From NCBI RefSeq assembly GCF_002160065.1, contig NZ_NFJW01000001.1:310001-374000 (forward strand): a DNA stretch of 64,000 nucleotides, in the 5' to 3' direction. The position numbers were made by a program, and so were the translations under genes. Origin of the DNA: Collinsella sp. An2. GTDB taxonomy: Bacteria; Actinomycetota; Coriobacteriia; Coriobacteriales; Coriobacteriaceae. The notes under the pieces were generated by a model. The model searched no databases. It was not told the origin of the DNA and saw only the letters and a list, made by a program, of their open reading frames with translations. Below, in pieces: positions 6,586 through 45,964 of this stretch (position 1 is the stretch's first letter; the number at the start of each line of letters is the position of its first letter).

Positions 6586-6926
6586 TGTTATGTGGTTGTG
6601 CGTGATGTGCGCTCGTGCTGATAGATGCGTGCGTCCGGCACGAGTTGCGTGCGGCGTTTTCAAGTTCCGTGCGCCAAACGAAAGTTGCGGGCGCGATTCG
6701 TCCATTTCTGGCTTCTCGGGAGGCGTTTTTTGGACAAAACCCTCTATCAATTTTGATAGGGCGCACGTAACGGCGACGGGGCGCACGCAACTCGCATCGG
6801 ACGCACGTGACTCTGACAAGGCGCACGCAACTCCGACAAGGGGCGTGCAACGAGCGGCGGAGCGTACGCAGCACTGATGGAAAGCGCGCAACACGAGGTT
6901 TCCTCGCCGCGACGCTCACGCAACCT
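6586..6926 (+). repeat. Mirror-symmetric 20-bp-period repeat array, copy 2
   Basis: Homologous and parallel to the array at 417-733. Left-arm units GATGCGTGCG, GTTGCGTGCG, GTTCCGTGCG and GTTGCGGGCG start at 6624, 6644, 6664 and 6684. Right-arm units (CGCACGTAAC, CGCACGCAAC and variants) start at 6762, 6782, 6802, 6822, 6842, 6863 and 6883. It has one 20-bp right-arm unit more than copy 1, as expected if units are gained or lost one at a time. The centre holds GGGAGGCGTTTTTTGG and the dyad CTATCAA-TT-TTGATAG. Together the two copies bracket beta-glucoside locus 1. Confidence 0.85.
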
Positions 6927-9893: not shown

Positions 9894-9907
9894 GCGAACC
9901 TCCCATT

Positions 9908-10059
9908 CGCCATTGGGGACGGGTACAAATGGCAGCTTTCACCATTGGGGACGGGTACAAATGGCAGACAGCTGGTGGACGCGCCGCTTTAGGCCGCCGA
10001 CACCGCTCCACCGCTATCGAAAGCGGCCATCGCTGCCATTTGTACCCGTCCCCAATGGC
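9908..10059. repeat. REPIN-like element: two direct and one inverted REP unit
   Basis: REP units (core ATTGGGGACGGGTACAAAT, ends GCCATT and AATGGC forming a stem) lie at 9908-9932 and 9941-9964 on plus, with an inverted unit at 10035-10059. The intervening stretch contains CCGCTATCGAAAGCGGCCAT, which recurs in other elements. It occupies the region upstream of the AlkD-like gene and downstream of LysR. Confidence 0.9.
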
Positions 10060-10089
10060 ACGTTTCCGGTGACAGAGCCCAGCGGCAAG

Positions 10090-11220: not shown

Positions 11221-11739
11221 ATGACAAGACCCCTGATTGCGTATTTTTCGCGCGCTGGACAGAACTATGTAAACGGCCAGGTGAGAGCACTCGCCGTGGG
11301 CAACACCGAAGTCGTTGCTCGCATGATTGCCGAGGAGACCGGCGGCGATCTGTTTCGCATCGAGACAGTACACGAGTATGCCGTCGATTACACGGAGTGC
11401 ACGGAGGAGGCGGCAGACGAGAAGCGCTTGAAGGCGCGTCCTAAGCTTCGCGCCCTGCCCAAGAATATCGACGATTACGACACGGTCATTCTCGGCTATC
11501 CCAACTGGTGGGGCACCATGCCCATGGCGGTCTATACCTTCCTGGAGTCGTTCGATTTCACGAACAAGGTAATCATGCCGTTCTGTACACATGAGGGCAG
11601 CGGCCTTTCCGGAACCGAGCGTGACATCGCCCGCACCTGCCCAGGTGCGGAGGTCGTGGCCGGGCTTGCCATCCACGGTGCCGATGCCGCGCACGCCCGC
11701 TCGCAGGTGCAGGCATGGCTCGCGCACAACGGCTTCTAA
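11221..11739 (+). CDS. Flavodoxin, cytoplasmic
   Basis: A 172-residue flavodoxin-fold protein. It starts with strand 1 (PLIAYFSRAGQNYVNGQ, FMN phosphate loop region), has NTEVVARMIAEETGGDLFRIE, the FMN-contacting GYPNWWGTMPMAVYTFLE (about residues 91-108) and a C-terminal PFCTHEGSGLSGTERDI, which is the long-chain flavodoxin pattern seen in many gut anaerobes. It carries low-potential electrons. There is no signal peptide; a secreted lipoprotein relative is at 62514-63173. Divergent LysR control is inferred from the palindrome upstream. Confidence 0.92.
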   Translation: MTRPLIAYFSRAGQNYVNGQVRALAVGNTEVVARMIAEETGGDLFRIETVHEYAVDYTECTEEAADEKRLKARPKLRALPKNIDDYDTVILGYPNWWGTMPMAVYTFLESFDFTNKVIMPFCTHEGSGLSGTERDIARTCPGAEVVAGLAIHGADAAHARSQVQAWLAHNGF

Positions 11740-11749
11740 CCCATCGCTT

Positions 11750-11860
11750 GCCATTGGGGACGGGTACAAATGATTTGACGTGCCATTGGGGACGGGTACA
11801 AATGACAGATTATGCCAATGGGGATGCGTCGTCGCGCCATTGGGGACGGGTACAAATGGC
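11750..11860 (+). repeat. Three direct REP units in tandem
   Basis: Units at 11750-11773, 11782-11806 and 11836-11860 all face the same way, with a decayed fragment (GCCAATGGGGATGCG) at about 11814. No inverted partner is present. They begin 11 bp after the flavodoxin stop. Confidence 0.9.
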
Positions 11861-12006
11861 TACTTGAAAAGTCGTCTCCGCCAAACCTCCAAGCCCGCTT
11901 CGTTCTCTCCCACATGCTTCGACGCTTCGGACGACCAACCCCAAATTGACTGAAGGCGCTCGGCACTAACCCCCTAGCAATTGGAACACCTGAAAGGAAA
12001 TACACC

Positions 12007-13042: not shown

Positions 13043-14044
13043 ATGACAATTTCAGCAGCGCGCCGCGTGCTCGGCAACAGCGGAATCGAGGTATCGCCCG
13101 TAGGGCTCGGCTGTATGGGGCTCACCCATGCAAGCGGTGATGCGATGCCCACGCATGAGGCGGCGCGTGTGATTCGCGAGGCGTTCGAGGCGGGCTATAC
13201 CTTCTTCGACACAGCTGAATGCTACGCGGGCGAGGATGCCGAGGGCAACGAGCTCTACAACGAGGTCGCGGTGGGCGAGGCCCTGCGCCCCGTGCGTGAT
13301 CAGGTGGTGATTGCCACCAAGTTCGGCGTGCAGCACAACCCGGACAAGACGCTGCGTATGGACAGCCGCCCCGAGACCATCCGCGCCTCCGTGGAGGGCA
13401 GTCTGCGCCGCCTGGGCATCGACTACATCGACCTCTACTACCAGCACCGCATCGACCCCAACGTGGAGCCGGAGGAGGTCGCCGGCGTCATGGCCGACCT
13501 CATCCGCGAGGGCAAGATTCGCGCCTGGGGTATCTCCGAGGCCACGGAGGATTATCTGCGCCGCGCACATGCCGTCTGCCCGGTGGCGGCCGTGCAGAAT
13601 CGCTACTCCATGTTGGCGCGCTGGCATGAGCCGCTCTTCCCGGTGCTCGAGGAACTCAACGTGGCGCTTGTGGCGTTCAGTCCCATGGCGAACGGCTTCC
13701 TCACCGGCGCGTACTCGCCGACCACGCAGTTCGAGGGTGTGCAGGACTTTCGCGACGGCATGCCGCAGTACACCGAGCAGGGCTACGAGAAGGACCGCGC
13801 GGTACTCGACCTTATCGGTGGCCTGGCGCGCGAGAAGGGCGCGACGATGGCGCAGATTTCGCTGGCGTGGATGCTCTGCAAGAAGCCGTGGATCATCCCG
13901 ATTCCGGGCAGCCGCAAGCCAGAGCGTCTGCGCGAGAACTTCGGCGCGGCGCGCGTGGAGCTCACTACCAACGAGGTGGCGCGCATCGACGCCGCGCTCG
14001 ACAGCATGGACCTCGCTGTCTTCGGCGGCCACGGCGCGAAGTAG
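13043..14044 (+). CDS. Aldo/keto reductase (AKR13/YakC-like)
   Basis: A 333-residue TIM-barrel NADPH-dependent carbonyl reductase. It begins RRVLGNSGIEVSPVGLGCMGL, has the catalytic Asp/Tyr pair in FFDTAECYAGED, Lys in IATKFGVQ, His in YYQHRID, and the cofactor-binding PIPGSRKPERLREN near residues 290-305. ATG 13043 is preceded by GGGAGG; an open frame reaches back to 12923 without a better ribosome site. It is monocistronic and followed by REP units. Physiological substrate unknown. Confidence 0.93.
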   Translation: MTISAARRVLGNSGIEVSPVGLGCMGLTHASGDAMPTHEAARVIREAFEAGYTFFDTAECYAGEDAEGNELYNEVAVGEALRPVRDQVVIATKFGVQHNPDKTLRMDSRPETIRASVEGSLRRLGIDYIDLYYQHRIDPNVEPEEVAGVMADLIREGKIRAWGISEATEDYLRRAHAVCPVAAVQNRYSMLARWHEPLFPVLEELNVALVAFSPMANGFLTGAYSPTTQFEGVQDFRDGMPQYTEQGYEKDRAVLDLIGGLAREKGATMAQISLAWMLCKKPWIIPIPGSRKPERLRENFGAARVELTTNEVARIDAALDSMDLAVFGGHGAK

Positions 14045-14053
14045 AAGCGCCCT

Positions 14054-14265
14054 GCCATTGGGGACGGGTACAAGCACCCTGCCATTGGGGACGGGTACAA
14101 ATGGCAGGTCACATTCAAAGCGAGCGCTTTCCTACATTGAGGGATGCGCCGTTCCGAGCCGCCGGTACCGCTCTGTTGCCAGCGCAAGTAGCCATTTCTG
14201 CCATATGTACCCGTCCCCAATGGCTAACCAACGGCAATCTGCCATTTGTACCCGTCCCCAATGGC
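14054..14265. repeat. REPIN-like element: two direct and two inverted REP units
   Basis: Direct units start at 14054 (3' end decayed) and 14081-14105; inverted units are 14200-14224 and 14241-14265. The core between them shares CTCTGTTGCC and CGCAAGTAGCCATTTCTG-type sequence with the elements at 25125 and 17850. The last unit ends 23 bp before the candidate TetR operator. Confidence 0.9.
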
Positions 14266-14287
14266 CAATGGCAGAGCGAAACATATA

Positions 14288-17837: not shown

Positions 17838-17849
17838 GCCGCACCCCCT

Positions 17850-18051
17850 GCCATTGGGGACGGGTACAAATGGTGCCATTGGGGACGGGTACAAATGGCA
17901 GATTTCTGTCATTGGGGACGGGTGCGAATGACAGCTTTCACTCAAGTCGGAGCCCTCCCTCAGCCGGAAGACGCGCTGCCCCAAGCCGTCGGCGCTGTTC
18001 CGCTGCTACTGGAAGCGGTCATTTCTGCCATTTGTACCCGTCCCCAATGGC
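17850..18051. repeat. REPIN-like element: three direct and one inverted REP unit
   Basis: Direct units at 17850-17873, 17875-17899 and 17908-17932 (third is GTCATT-type with GGGTGCGAAT), inverted unit 18027-18051. The inner sequence includes GTTCCGCTGCTACTGGAAGC, like other elements of this family. Its right end overlaps the 3' end of the nitroreductase gene on the minus strand. Confidence 0.9.
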
Positions 18052-18899
18052 AAGTCCAGGCGGTGCAGGCGATGCGGGTCCATACAGCGTTGCGTTCCGC
18101 GTACGTAGGGGATTTCCGGGTACCCGAAGCCGATAATCATGCCGACGTAGTGGCTCTCTGGGATCCTCAGCAGCGCGCGGACGTCGGGCATGAGGTCGAG
18201 CACGGCAAGCGGGAAGGTCATCATCACGGCGCCAAGACCGCGGGAGGCGCACAGTAGCTCAAAGTACGTGCCCGCGATGATGACGTCCTGCACCGGCTCG
18301 CCGTTGCCGAGCGGCGCGTGCGGAATGAACACGTGAGGCGCGCCGCAGAAGAACATATCGGGGCGGACCGTCTGCTCCCAGCCGCGCATGTCCTCGTAGG
18401 CTTCCCGACCAAAGCCCTCCGGGTAGATGCCCTGCTCGGCAAGCTGACCCATCCTGTTCCGCACGACGGCACGCAGTCGGTCCATCCGGTCCATGTCATC
18501 GACCAGCGTGAACTCGACCTGTTGCTTGTTGCCGCCGTTGGGCGCGTTGGCGAGAAGGTCAATCATCTGGTCCACTACGTCGCGCGGCACGTTGCGGCGC
18601 CGGTAGCGGCGACAGGAGCGCCGGCCCGCTACGAGGGCGTCCATGACGGGCGCAGCTTCGCTGGAATGCGCCACGGGCAAGCTGTCTTCCGGCTGCTTGT
18701 CCAATACGCTCACCGCGCCCATTGGGCAGACGGCCAGGCAGTGATCGCACTTCCAGCAGCCGTTCCAGCCAAACTCCTCAAAACCGCGCATGCGCGGGCG
18801 ACGGTCGTCACCCATCTCGAGCACTCCGCCGGGGCAGACGTTGACGCAACGTCCGCATCCGACGCACGCATCGCTGACGATGAAGCGCGCGGCGTTCAT
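18006..18899 (-). CDS. Ferredoxin-nitroreductase fusion protein with REP-encoded tail
   Basis: A 297-residue protein with two [4Fe-4S] motifs at the N-terminus (Cys12, 15, 18, 22 and Cys48, 51, 54, 58) followed by an FMN nitroreductase domain (from about residue 88: GRRSCRRYRRR, and the C-terminal GLGAVMMTFPL and IIGFGYPEIPY). It should pass electrons from the clusters to FMN and reduce a substrate. ATG 18899 overlaps the ATPase stop (ATGA). The last 15 residues (LPLGTGTNGRNDRFQ) are translated from an inverted REP unit, so the original stop seems to have been lost to an insertion. An open frame continuing upstream of 18899 is the ATPase gene in another frame. Confidence 0.9.
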   Translation of the reverse strand: MNAARFIVSDACVGCGRCVNVCPGGVLEMGDDRRPRMRGFEEFGWNGCWKCDHCLAVCPMGAVSVLDKQPEDSLPVAHSSEAAPVMDALVAGRRSCRRYRRRNVPRDVVDQMIDLLANAPNGGNKQQVEFTLVDDMDRMDRLRAVVRNRMGQLAEQGIYPEGFGREAYEDMRGWEQTVRPDMFFCGAPHVFIPHAPLGNGEPVQDVIIAGTYFELLCASRGLGAVMMTFPLAVLDLMPDVRALLRIPESHYVGMIIGFGYPEIPYVRGTQRCMDPHRLHRLDLPLGTGTNGRNDRFQ

Positions 18900-25028: not shown

Positions 25029-25124
25029 CCGTCCCTCCTCGCCGACTGAACGCTATAGCCGCTATCCTGCGGAAACCGACGTATTCATACTACAGCAGCA
25101 ACGCATGGGAGAATCTGCCATTGT

Positions 25125-25260
25125 GCCATTGGGGACGGGTACAAATGACAGCTTTCGCTCAAGGCGTCTTCCATTGAGGACCTGTCACTCCAGGCCTCCG
25201 TTGCCGCTCTGCTGCTACCGGAAGCAGCTATTTCTGTCATTTGTACCCGTCCCCAATGGC
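25125..25260. repeat. Complete REPIN-like element
   Basis: Direct unit 25125-25149, inverted unit 25236-25260, 86 bp between them: the cleanest full-length example. The inner part includes CAGCTTTCGCTCAAGGCG and CCGCTCTGCTGCTACCGGAA, shared with 35910-36068. It lies between the divergent-facing Rrf2 and RpiR genes. Confidence 0.92.
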
Positions 25261-25277
25261 AAAGGGGATGCTTTCGG

Positions 25278-34469: not shown

Positions 34470-34538
34470 GTCATTGGGGACGGGTACAAATGGCTGATTT
34501 AGATGAACAATCTGTCATTTGTACCCGTCCCCAATGGA
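34470..34538. repeat. Compact REPIN-like hairpin
   Basis: Direct unit 34470-34494 and inverted unit 34514-34538 separated by only 19 bp. The two units can pair over about 25 nt. It lies 97 bp after the AKR stop and could act as a bidirectional transcript end. Confidence 0.9.
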
Positions 34539-35909: not shown

Positions 35910-36068
35910 GCCATTGGGGACGGGTACAAATGACAGCTTTCGCTCAAGGCGCCTCCCAATATGGACCTGTCACTCCAGGCAGCCGGCTCTGCCCTGTCGC
36001 TATCGAAGCAGCTGCTAGCTGTCATTCGTACCCGTCCCCAATGGCGATTTGTATCCGTCCCCAATGGC
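35910..36068. repeat. REPIN-like element: one direct and two inverted REP units
   Basis: Direct unit 35910-35934; inverted units 36021-36045 and 36044-36068 (the last with GTATCCGTCCCCAATGGC) overlap by 2 bp. Partial units precede it. This is the last REP locus of the window; none was seen from 36.1 to 64 kb. Confidence 0.9.
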
Positions 36069-36091
36069 GAAGGCGCGTCCCCAAAGGCAGG

Positions 36092-38913: not shown

Positions 38914-39693
38914 ATGGCAGTACGGCAGATCGTTTTTAGTCCTACGGGTGGAACTCAGCGCGTTGCAGACATCGTTTCCGATGCGCTGGTTAAGCACGGT
39001 GTTGGAGACAACGCCTCGGCTATCGATTTGTCCAATCCACATGCGGATTTCTCGGCGATGACGCTGGACGCGGGCGATGTGGCCGTTATTGCCATGCCGT
39101 CGTTCGGCGGACGTGTTCCCGCGCCTGCAACCGAGCGCCTGGCGAAGGTCAAGGGTGCCGGCGCGCGCTGCGTGTTGGTGTGTGTCTATGGAAACCGAGC
39201 CTATGAAGATACGCTTGTTGAGATGGAAGACGCAGCTCATGCGGCAGGGTTTAAGGTCGTCGCGGCAATGGCCGCCATCGCCGAGCATTCGATGATGCAT
39301 CAATATGCCGCCGGCCGTCCCGACGATAAAGACCGCGAGGCTCTCGAGGACATGGTGGCTGCGATTGCTCAGAAGCTTCAGGATGAGCACGCAGACGAAG
39401 AGCCGACGAACATTCCCGGCAACCGTCCGTACAAGAAGGCGGGTAAGGGCATGGTGCCCAAGGCGTCCTCGGCGTGCGTCGCTTGCGGCCTGTGCGCTCG
39501 CCGTTGCCCGGTTCAGGCCATCGACCCCAGCGATCCGAAGAAGGTGAAGAGCGACGCGTGCATCGGCTGCATGCGGTGTGTGTCGGTCTGCCCGCACGAG
39601 GCGCGTGCACTCAACGGTGCCATGCTTGCCGCCGCATCGCTCGCGCTCAAGAAGGCGTGCTCCACGCGCAAAGAGCCGGAGCTTTACCTTTAG
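38914..39693 (+). CDS. EFR1-type flavodoxin-ferredoxin fusion protein
   Basis: A 259-residue protein with an N-terminal flavodoxin domain (residues 1-150; FSPTGGTQRVADIV FMN-phosphate loop and MPSFGGRVPAPATERL) and a C-terminal 2[4Fe-4S] ferredoxin domain (CVACGLCARRCPVQAI and CIGCMRCVSVCPHEARAL). It should couple two- and one-electron transfer. ATG 38914 has AGGAGGGG upstream. The TAG stop abuts a MITE-like element; the last base of the stop is the first base of that element. Divergent Rrf2 control is likely. Confidence 0.92.
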   Translation: MAVRQIVFSPTGGTQRVADIVSDALVKHGVGDNASAIDLSNPHADFSAMTLDAGDVAVIAMPSFGGRVPAPATERLAKVKGAGARCVLVCVYGNRAYEDTLVEMEDAAHAAGFKVVAAMAAIAEHSMMHQYAAGRPDDKDREALEDMVAAIAQKLQDEHADEEPTNIPGNRPYKKAGKGMVPKASSACVACGLCARRCPVQAIDPSDPKKVKSDACIGCMRCVSVCPHEARALNGAMLAAASLALKKACSTRKEPELYL

Positions 39694-39852
39694 GGAAACA
39701 CTGATCAAACCATTCCGCGCCCGATCCCGCCGTGCCGGGCGCCTGCGGCCTCAGGCTGCGTCGGCGCAGCCCCATCGTGCCTTCCTCGCCTTCGGCCGCA
39801 TCCGCCTCGCCGCGGCGGCCCCGGGCGTGAAAGCCTTTAATCGGTGTTTCCC
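39693..39852 (+). mobile_element. MITE-like element A, about 160 bp
   Basis: Imperfect terminal inverted repeats (GGGAAACACTGATCAAA at the left; right end is the complement of GGGAAACACCGATTAAA) enclose GC-rich hairpin-forming sequence. It starts at the last base of the preceding TAG stop. A diverged copy lies at 60812-60972. There is no coding capacity, so movement would need a transposase elsewhere. Confidence 0.7.
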
Positions 39853-39961: not shown

Positions 39962-40320
39962 TGGTCAGAAAGTCCGCCTCCTGGGCAGGCTATGCCTGTC
40001 TTTGTGGCTTGAATGGTCAAAAGGTTCGTCCTCTGGGTAGCTCGCGTCTACTTGCGCGGGTTGAGTGGTCAAAAGAGTCCTCCGCTGGGTACGGGGTTTG
40101 CGGTGAGGAGCTCTGGCTGGTCAAAAGCCATGTCGTTTGGGTACGAATTGTGAGATTCGGCCGAGTTGGCGCGCCCGCGGTCTCATCGGCCTGCCCAGGC
40201 GGCGCCGCTTTTGACCACGGAACATGCGACGTCGCATCGCTCCTGCCCAGCGGACCGCCTTTTTGACCGCAGAGCAAGCGGCGCTACGCCACTCGTGCCC
40301 AGGAGGCGTCCTTTTCGACC
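39962..40320. repeat. Mirror-symmetric 52-bp-period repeat array
   Basis: TGGTCAAAAG (variants) starts at 39962, 40014, 40066 and 40118, exactly every 52 bp, each followed at +19 by CTGGGT (39981, 40033, 40085, 40137). After a central 75 bp the same unit appears inverted: CTGCCCAG at 40191, 40243 and GTGCCCAG at 40295, with GACC at 40213, 40265 and 40317. Other positions inside the units vary. It fills most of a gene-free stretch between MITE A and the DUF5131 gene. Architecture parallels the 20-bp arrays at 417 and 6586, but the sequence is unrelated. Not a CRISPR. Confidence 0.85.
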
Positions 40321-40435
40321 ATCGCTCGCCCCGTCCCGCGGCGTGGGCTCACCCAGTCTTCGCGCAAAGCTCGGGGCCAATGGCGTACAGTGTTCCCAGC
40401 AAAGGTCGGGCTCAGAATAGGGGGTGGGATACCGC

Positions 40436-41479
40436 ATGCACGATATCTGGAACCCCTGGCACGGATGTCGCAAGGCCAGCGAGGGCTGCGACAACTGCTA
40501 CATGTTTACCATGGACCGCTGGCGCGGCCTCGACGGCGGACAGGTCCGTCGCAACAAGGCGGGCTTCCGGTACCCGCTTTCGCGCACCCGCGACGGGCTG
40601 CCCAAAGTGCGCGCGGGCGAGCTCATCCGCGTATGCATGACCTCGGACTTCTTTGTGGATGAGGCCGACCCTTGGCGCGACGAGGCATGGGACATCACGC
40701 GCGAGCGGCCCGACGTGCGGTTTTGGCTGCTCACCAAACGGCCCGAACGATTTGTTACGTGTCTTCCCAAGGACTGGGGCGACGGCTGGGAAAACGTGAT
40801 GCTCAATGTGACCTGCGAAAACCAGCGCCGCGCCGACGAGCGCATTCCCATGTTGCTGGCGACGCCTGCGCGTCATAAGGGCATCATGTGCGCCCCGTTC
40901 ATCGGGCAGGTGGACATAGAGCGCTATCTTGCCGCCGGCGATGCGTATCGCATGTCGTGCCAAGCGGATCGGCAAGGCACGGTGACCGCGACCCCCGAGA
41001 TGCCCGCAACCCTCGCGACCGGCTCTGCAGACAGGGCGTACGAGGCGCGCGGGCCATACAAAGCGGACGGCAGCGCGGAAGGCGTCGATGACGTAATCGT
41101 TCGCAGCTGTGGCATTGAGCAGGTAATCTGCGGTGGCGAGAACTACGAGGGTGCGCGTCCGTGCGACTTTGCCTGGGTACAGCTCTTGGCCGGGCAGTGT
41201 CGCGATCACCATATCACCTTCGCCTTTATCGAGACGGGCAGCGTGTTTGTAAAAGATGGCCGGACATATCGCATGCCCAGCCATCGCTTACAGAGCGAGC
41301 AGGCACGCAAGTCCGGGGTGAGTTTTCGCGGCAGGCCCATCGAGTGGCACCTCACCGACCCCTTGGGTATGGAGATCCCCAACGACGAGCTTTACCGCCC
41401 GCAATGGATTGAGCGTTGTTCGCAGTGCGGACAACAGATCATTTGCAACGGTTGCGCTCGATGTGGCAGGTGCGAGTAG
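40436..41479 (+). CDS. DUF5131 (phage Gp37/Gp68-type) family protein
   Basis: A 347-residue protein of the DUF5131 family. The N-terminus carries the conserved WNPWHGCRKASEGCDNCYMF with Cys11, Cys18 and Cys21, an arrangement that resembles but is not the canonical radical-SAM CX3CX2C. Later come KRPERFVTCLPKDW, VTCENQRRADERIPMLL, GIEQVICGGENYEGARPCDF and a C-terminal zinc-ribbon-like cluster CSQCGQQIICNGCARCGRC. Related proteins occur in phages and plasmids; their function is not established. ATG 40436 follows an AGGGGG box. It lies directly after the 52-bp array. Confidence 0.85.
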   Translation: MHDIWNPWHGCRKASEGCDNCYMFTMDRWRGLDGGQVRRNKAGFRYPLSRTRDGLPKVRAGELIRVCMTSDFFVDEADPWRDEAWDITRERPDVRFWLLTKRPERFVTCLPKDWGDGWENVMLNVTCENQRRADERIPMLLATPARHKGIMCAPFIGQVDIERYLAAGDAYRMSCQADRQGTVTATPEMPATLATGSADRAYEARGPYKADGSAEGVDDVIVRSCGIEQVICGGENYEGARPCDFAWVQLLAGQCRDHHITFAFIETGSVFVKDGRTYRMPSHRLQSEQARKSGVSFRGRPIEWHLTDPLGMEIPNDELYRPQWIERCSQCGQQIICNGCARCGRCE

Positions 41480-45835: not shown

Positions 45836-45901
45836 CCACCCCCGAGAGGCTGACGTCTTGCGACTGGCTTGCGCGCGTGATATAGTGGGCACGACCAGAG
45901 G

Positions 45902-45944
45902 GTCCCTGACGAGGGCAGCCGTACCAGGTTCGAAAAGACGGCGC
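45902..45944 (+). promoter_or_regulatory. Guanidine-III (ykkC-III) riboswitch upstream of gdx
   Basis: The short leader contains CTGACGAGGGC, GCCGTACCAGG and AAAAGACGGCGC in the order and spacing of the guanidine-III aptamer, a roughly 40-nt pseudoknot that senses guanidinium. It ends 20 bp before the start codon, with the GGGGAGG ribosome site at 45953-45959 close behind, so translation control is likely. The downstream gene is an SMR exporter, the expected target. Confidence 0.85.
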
Positions 45945-45964
45945 ATCGATCGGGGAGGTGCCTC

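Follow-up and report, generated by a model that had tools for sequence, protein, structure and literature searches.

A mirrored array of short repeats was found at positions 39962-40321 of the window (the whole stretch of 64,000 nucleotides that was analysed, situated on contig C1 of G000, the 2.54-Mb genome of an Enorma relative). It consisted of seven 26-bp units, four in direct orientation followed by three inverted ones, between a gene for a 4Fe-4S ferredoxin-type protein and a co-directional gene for a DUF5131 protein (Table 1). The motif 5' ends confirmed the exact 52-bp period and the four-plus-three arrangement given by the original prediction, while its central 75 bp turned out to be a distance between low coordinates, the facing 5' ends being 99 bp apart and the innermost motifs being separated by 48 bp. 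The best form of the repeat was TGGTCA-N14-TGGGYA (26 bp) plus a 26-bp filler, and a scan of the window for the pattern found 4 matches vs 0.00 expected by chance. The anchors had been predicted to recur exactly, which held for their spacing but not for their sequence, since TGGTCAAAAG was exact in four of the seven units and CTGGGT in two, the rest reading CTGGGC or TTGGGT. The fillers showed a unit-to-unit identity of 0.29-0.34, near background. The two neighbouring genes probably do not belong to the system, and a CRISPR array was rejected because the repeats were degenerate and mirrored and the neighbours were ferredoxin-type and DUF5131 genes, not cas.

Table 1. The 52-bp array of the window with its flanking genes, and orthologous gaps of related genomes that carry unlike site types.
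Feature	Position	Strand	Remark
4Fe-4S ferredoxin-type protein, upstream neighbour	38914..39693	+	
Unit 1, direct arm, TGGTCAGAAAGTCCGCCTCCTGGGCA	39962..39987	+	motif 5' end 39962; score 25.9, weight matrix from G000 copies
Unit 2, direct arm, TGGTCAAAAGGTTCGTCCTCTGGGTA	40014..40039	+	motif 5' end 40014; 52 bp from unit 1
Unit 3, direct arm, TGGTCAAAAGAGTCCTCCGCTGGGTA	40066..40091	+	motif 5' end 40066; 52 bp from unit 2
Unit 4, direct arm, TGGTCAAAAGCCATGTCGTTTGGGTA	40118..40143	+	motif 5' end 40118; 52 bp from unit 3
Direct-arm stretch with variable 26-bp fillers	39988..40117	.	fillers 39988-40013, 40040-40065, 40092-40117
Centre, 48 bp	40144..40191	.	length class (99-100 bp, facing 5' ends) common to other arrays; sequence not
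Unit 5, inverted arm, TGGTCAAAAGCGGCGCCGCCTGGGCA	40192..40217	-	motif 5' end 40217
Unit 6, inverted arm, CGGTCAAAAAGGCGGTCCGCTGGGCA	40244..40269	-	motif 5' end 40269; step 52 bp
Unit 7, inverted arm, TGGTCGAAAAGGACGCCTCCTGGGCA	40296..40321	-	motif 5' end 40321; step 52 bp
Inverted-arm stretch with variable 26-bp fillers	40218..40295	.	fillers 40218-40243, 40270-40295
DUF5131 protein, downstream neighbour, co-directional	40436..41479	+	
Orthologous gaps with unlike site types	G009 L097 / G013 L225; G009 L104 / G013 L229; G005 L217 / G013 L224		

Immediately upstream of the array, an imperfect inverted repeat (GGGAAACACTGATCAAA... / ...AATCGGTGTTTCCC) at 39693-39852 could represent either a terminator or some small mobile element. 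Elsewhere in the window, a Guanidine-III riboswitch at 45888-45947 exceeded the Rfam threshold, and REP-like TGCCATTGGGGACGGGTACAAATGGCAG sequences were dispersed as facing pairs (9897-10066, 11738-11867, 14041-14268, 17838-18052, 25124-25261, 34472-34536 and 35910-36071), with spacings of 64 to 184 bp and no apparent helical phasing.

A search of G000 allowing up to three mismatches revealed 86 motif matches, vs 7 for the reversed-pattern control. A weight matrix grouped them into about 15 arrays, each built of 3 to 9 units; the steps measured 52 bp (51 to 53), and in 15 out of 15 the centre spanned 99 or 100 bp. Arrays with the 52-bp period were also present in Enorma phocaeensis An718 (G002) and in two uncultured Coriobacteriaceae species of another genus (G009 and G021), where the motif was TGGTCACGAGGCGAGACCTATGGGTG and a conserved CGTAGCA was located inside the filler. 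A two-unit pattern gave 56, 31, 46 and 25 matches in G000, G002, G009 and G021, respectively, and was absent from the 63 other family genomes (4 of 67 positive), with no match to the reversed-pattern control in any of them. Scanning of about 85,000 genomes with a three-unit pattern detected, beyond the known arrays, only two unrelated simple repeats. Simple repeats or chance accounted for the matches that the triple pattern had in Alicyclobacillaceae and in an Actinomycetes MAG, and for those of the double pattern in three viral contigs. De novo detection found no 52-bp triples in 260 kb of G013, because this genome uses two-site elements of another motif. The mirror elements thus form a class, as had been proposed, with regularly spaced arrays in G000 and others in its relatives, and the further copies kept both arms and a regular spacing; irregular or one-armed copies did not occur.

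At least three further site types besides the 52-bp type were dispersed genome-wide with helical spacing. Pairs of ACCCCCtaTGGACAAAAnnnGCATCGAAATAAT numbered about ten in G013 and G041, as did pairs of TGGCCAN7GGTCGAAAAAGTA in G005, both with quantised spacings of 162 to 228 bp. A second system in G000 comprised the C8 paralog of the partner gene described below and TGGTCAATTTACCCACTGAGGTAGTTTTT pairs spaced by 184, 194 and 205 bp, with identical sites and unrelated interiors. Centre spacings of the 52-bp type were 78, 89, 99/100, 109, 141, 152, 162/163, 202/203, 214 and 225 bp. With the 98-101 class set aside, the centres gave a Rayleigh R of 0.92 at 10.5 bp (p ~6e-7, orthologous arrays included), and odd same-strand gaps of 63, 84 and 106 bp likewise corresponded to whole turns. 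Values of R were similarly 0.93 in G009/21, 0.93 in G005 and 0.88 in G013/41, and when the de-duplicated spacings of five site sets were pooled, a jitter test yielded 0 of 20000. Site spacing was therefore confined to one phase of about 10.5 bp, a feature of helically phased platforms, and the quantisation of centre spacings in several unrelated motif families bore out the earlier equation of 52 bp with five helical turns.

The partner gene of the 52-bp arrays was a 340-codon frame (329 aa from the ATG) at G000:C34:28297-29316, flanked by both L042 arrays. Each of the four array-bearing genomes had an ortholog (≥50% identity) next to an array: among 30 relatives searched, matches better than 1e-100 came only from the array-bearing G000, G002 and G009 and were all beside arrays, and the G021 copy likewise adjoined an array. 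The next relatives (35 to 42% identity) belonged to genomes without 52-bp arrays, yet an inverted TGGNCA pair was located beside each gene. Under a strict rule (TGGNCA, ≥16/26 identical, 60 to 270 bp apart), an inverted pair was found within about 0.5 kb of the gene at 10 of 10 discovery loci, the control yielding 2 pairs per 260 kb, one of these a true element. Among 19 independent validation loci from an order-wide search, a pair was present at 13 under the strict rule and at 18 under a relaxed one. All six paralogs found in G000 had their own pair, and throughout Coriobacteriia the motifs of the relatives' site pairs differed from type to type. The class is defined by a DUF559/MTES_1575-like gene beside each element type, with the partner gene outside the window. 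Two related copies of a mirror array with 20-bp units (GGGCGCACGCAACTC...) were also present in the window, at 583-700 and 6642-6853; the original prediction had grouped them, as unrelated in sequence but alike in layout, with the 52-bp array. This link was not supported, and no connection of these copies to partner-family genes was found.

The element was complete on both sides of the gene at L050, L174, L179, L182, L188, L274, L275, L278 and L279. At L182, a distant paralog was located between exact mirror copies of its element (733-1065 and 2422-2754), with steps of 103, 60, 169 and 169, 60, 103, like long terminal inverted repeats. L285, L188, L182 and L286 contained more mirrored tandem arrangements, in which the steps were 41-42, 50 and 60 bp. 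The mirror array of L285 (2903-3166; steps of 42 and 41/50 bp, that is four and five turns) adjoined a gene sister to the 52-bp-array clade and is a possible intermediate form. At L292 (2976-3278), mirrored tandem TGGTCA...GAATGGGCG sites with 50-bp steps were situated beside a gene of the partner family. This locus comes from a different family of the same order, so tandem forms are not confined to Coriobacteriaceae. No close relative of the partner protein was found in phages and plasmids. The reading of the G002 gene copy as broken was rejected because its stops sit upstream of its ATG, and the notion that the G002 arrays are decaying for want of their protein was abandoned with it.

Members of the DUF559/MTES_1575 group are common, and nearly all lack a known function. 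The MTES_1575 REase profile matched 10 of 10 aligned members at E≤1 (best 6.9e-7) and DUF559 matched 4 of 10, the founding member reaching 13.1 bits against MTES_1575 (E=0.1; curated cut-off 38.2). The partner protein was provisionally classed as DUF559/MTES_1575-like with a PD-(D/E)XK fold, the founding member being below the curated thresholds. The catalytic D...E-x-K residues (D230, E241 and K243) were invariant among ten aligned proteins. The lysine was replaced in several relatives that retain elements, which suggests that cleavage may not be the common function (x_G087, S_G116 and out_L187 are to be disregarded in the tree of relatives, their frame having been wrongly read). A confident AlphaFold model (pLDDT 82.6, pTM 0.85) had no significant solved relative in Foldseek; the best nuclease-type hits had probabilities of 0.82 and 0.54 (E 0.2-0.8), and the most sensible of the weak hits were PvuRts1I and the homing endonuclease I-Bth0305I. 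The N-terminal half (about 150-200 aa) was without a match.

Based on these observations, the array of the window is probably a platform of double-stranded DNA to which a cognate DUF559/MTES_1575-like protein, encoded elsewhere in G000, would bind, the link between protein and sites being suggested by their proximity and by their co-occurrence among genomes. Two other explanations were given appreciably less credence. In the first, the nuclease-like protein mobilises the arrays in trans as non-autonomous elements of MITE or REPIN type, and the phasing reflects synapsis of two short ends. Such an origin, which we regard as possible but doubtful, is consistent with the gene lying between complete copies of its own element at several loci, with the spread of copies over intergenic DNA, each paralog having its own type, and with arrays that resemble duplicates of each other (L038/L040 and the two in L042). 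However, interiors were unrelated at identical sites, which indicates that no single element was copied to give the dispersed pairs, and the protein is no known transposase. The shared interior and sharp ends of a MITE or class II non-autonomous transposon were likewise lacking, and that assignment was rejected. Positions were also often common to species: several arrays were syntenic within a genus, and at three loci besides the gene's own, the same orthologous gap contained different site types (Table 1). No clean empty site was found at the two array-minus loci examined. The G021 counterpart of G009 L102 carried a degraded remnant unit and a deletion, and where G041 has an element (L240; L120-L123 region), G013 has the same flanking genes with a gene of some 390 codons between them, a case of replacement. 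Synteny, unlike types in the same gaps, and remnant or replacement at array-minus loci together point to vertical inheritance with a change of site code rather than frequent transposition, although insertion hot spots might also be a cause of the common positions.

The second explanation, held with equal reserve, regards the arrays as host-beneficial nucleoid or insulator anchors and the DUF559-like protein as architectural. Elements were mostly downstream of at least one gene and at the ends of transcription units, and only 2 of the 72 with both neighbours called were located between divergent genes, the proportion among comparable gaps being about 20% (Fisher p=4e-4). This avoidance of divergent gaps would fit an anchoring role, as would the five-turn tandem layout at some 15 sites per genome, the conservation of positions while the motif changes, and the loss of the catalytic lysine in some element-bearing family members. 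Conversely, most family genomes were without 52-bp arrays, and relatives had 3 to 10 pairs or none. The genes flanking the dispersed elements were unrelated housekeeping genes with no common theme, which also counts against such anchors and led to a regulon explanation being dropped.

A role in RNA, in which the inverted arms form a long transcript hairpin (a terminator, a REP-like mRNA stabiliser or a processing site), appears very improbable. The predicted RNA fold of the array was strong (z -7.4), as expected of any inverted arms, and the location of elements downstream of genes would suit a transcript feature. Nevertheless, no Rfam match and no strong terminator were found within the array, the fillers were unpaired, and quantisation by helical turns has no role in RNA. 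Mirrored units in G000 were no more alike than non-mirrored ones (0.484 vs 0.483), and the facing innermost units were weakly more alike in G009/21 (p=0.01), G002 (p=0.04) and G013/41 (p=0.05), an excess stemming partly from orthologous duplicates. With compensatory change thus not observed, a structured RNA or terminator was rejected, and helically quantised spacing with little or no mirror covariation argues for a double-stranded protein platform instead of an RNA hairpin. Chance, assembly artefact or functionless tandem duplication can be dismissed, for although slippage can create tandem repeats, the unrelated fillers indicate that the units were not duplicated, spacing was kept without sequence, and the pattern was present in four species that had been assembled independently, in none of which the control had a match.

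In the preferred reading of a protein-DNA platform, the protein would recognise a site of about 26 bp, composed of TGGNCA and a type-specific remainder, and its copies would occupy neighbouring sites along a single helical face. Direct and inverted arms would then be drawn together, either as a small DNA loop or as a compact assembly, and this would require the sites to keep helical phase. The protein probably regulates its own gene via the adjoining element, and the dispersed elements are probably REPIN-like companions that are vertically inherited and switch site type as the protein changes. For the cell, the complex may fold or insulate the chromosome at transcription-unit ends, or it may simply be the persisting remainder of an ex-mobile system; a REPIN-like system that used to be mobile and is now mostly passed on vertically is slightly favoured.

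In its logic, the array system resembles REPIN-RAYT, in which REP doublets are associated with REP-associated tyrosine transposases (PMC3116915), as judged from the shared arrangement: inverted doublets of short sites, extragenic and dispersed, occur in several types per genome, each beside a cognate gene with which the sites co-evolve, and occasionally form tandem clusters. It nevertheless lacks the defining features of that family. The gene beside every element type matched MTES_1575/DUF559 and not an HUH Y1 transposase, the consensus TGGTCAAWW...CTGGGCA has no internal palindrome, unlike the REP unit, and copy numbers were 3 to 20, vs hundreds in REPIN-RAYT. Helix-locked spacing, little or no mirror covariation and unrelated interiors are further differences. 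Ordered repeats in both orientations at transcription-unit ends are also seen in BIMEs, but here REP palindromes were absent, all direct units preceded the inverted ones, and the period was exactly 52 bp. As in LacI/AraC-type looping operators, a site was located beside the protein's gene, and two sites on the same face would form small loops; unlike such operators, the sites were dispersed genome-wide near unrelated genes, with up to five tandem sites per inverted arm and a nuclease-fold protein. Profile matches and a weak structural resemblance place the protein itself in the fold class of Vsr, DUF559, the MTES_1575 REase and the EDxHD homing endonuclease I-Bth0305I, with which it also shares the D and E-x-K residues, but dispersed inverted arrays and an N-terminal half without a match set it apart from the descriptions of these proteins in the papers searched.

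In the open-access literature, nothing was found on an association of such proteins with dispersed inverted site arrays. Somewhat less firmly than for the platform itself, we lean towards an undescribed class of systems, in which nuclease-fold paralogs of Coriobacteriia would each possess a private address code, made of inverted sites in helical phase, beside the gene and scattered over the genome, bridged into loops, with the code switching together with the protein at positions that are kept.

The sets of binding-site-like elements that accompany each examined gene offer a direct handle on the function of the DUF559/MTES_1575 group. The spacing rule exposes DNA geometry from sequence alone, and a phase kept without sequence is a rare natural nucleoprotein record. 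Additionally, unlike site codes at the same positions across species open the way to a comparative study of protein-DNA co-evolution, and the paralogs within one genome represent a set of orthogonal, putative DNA-binding proteins.
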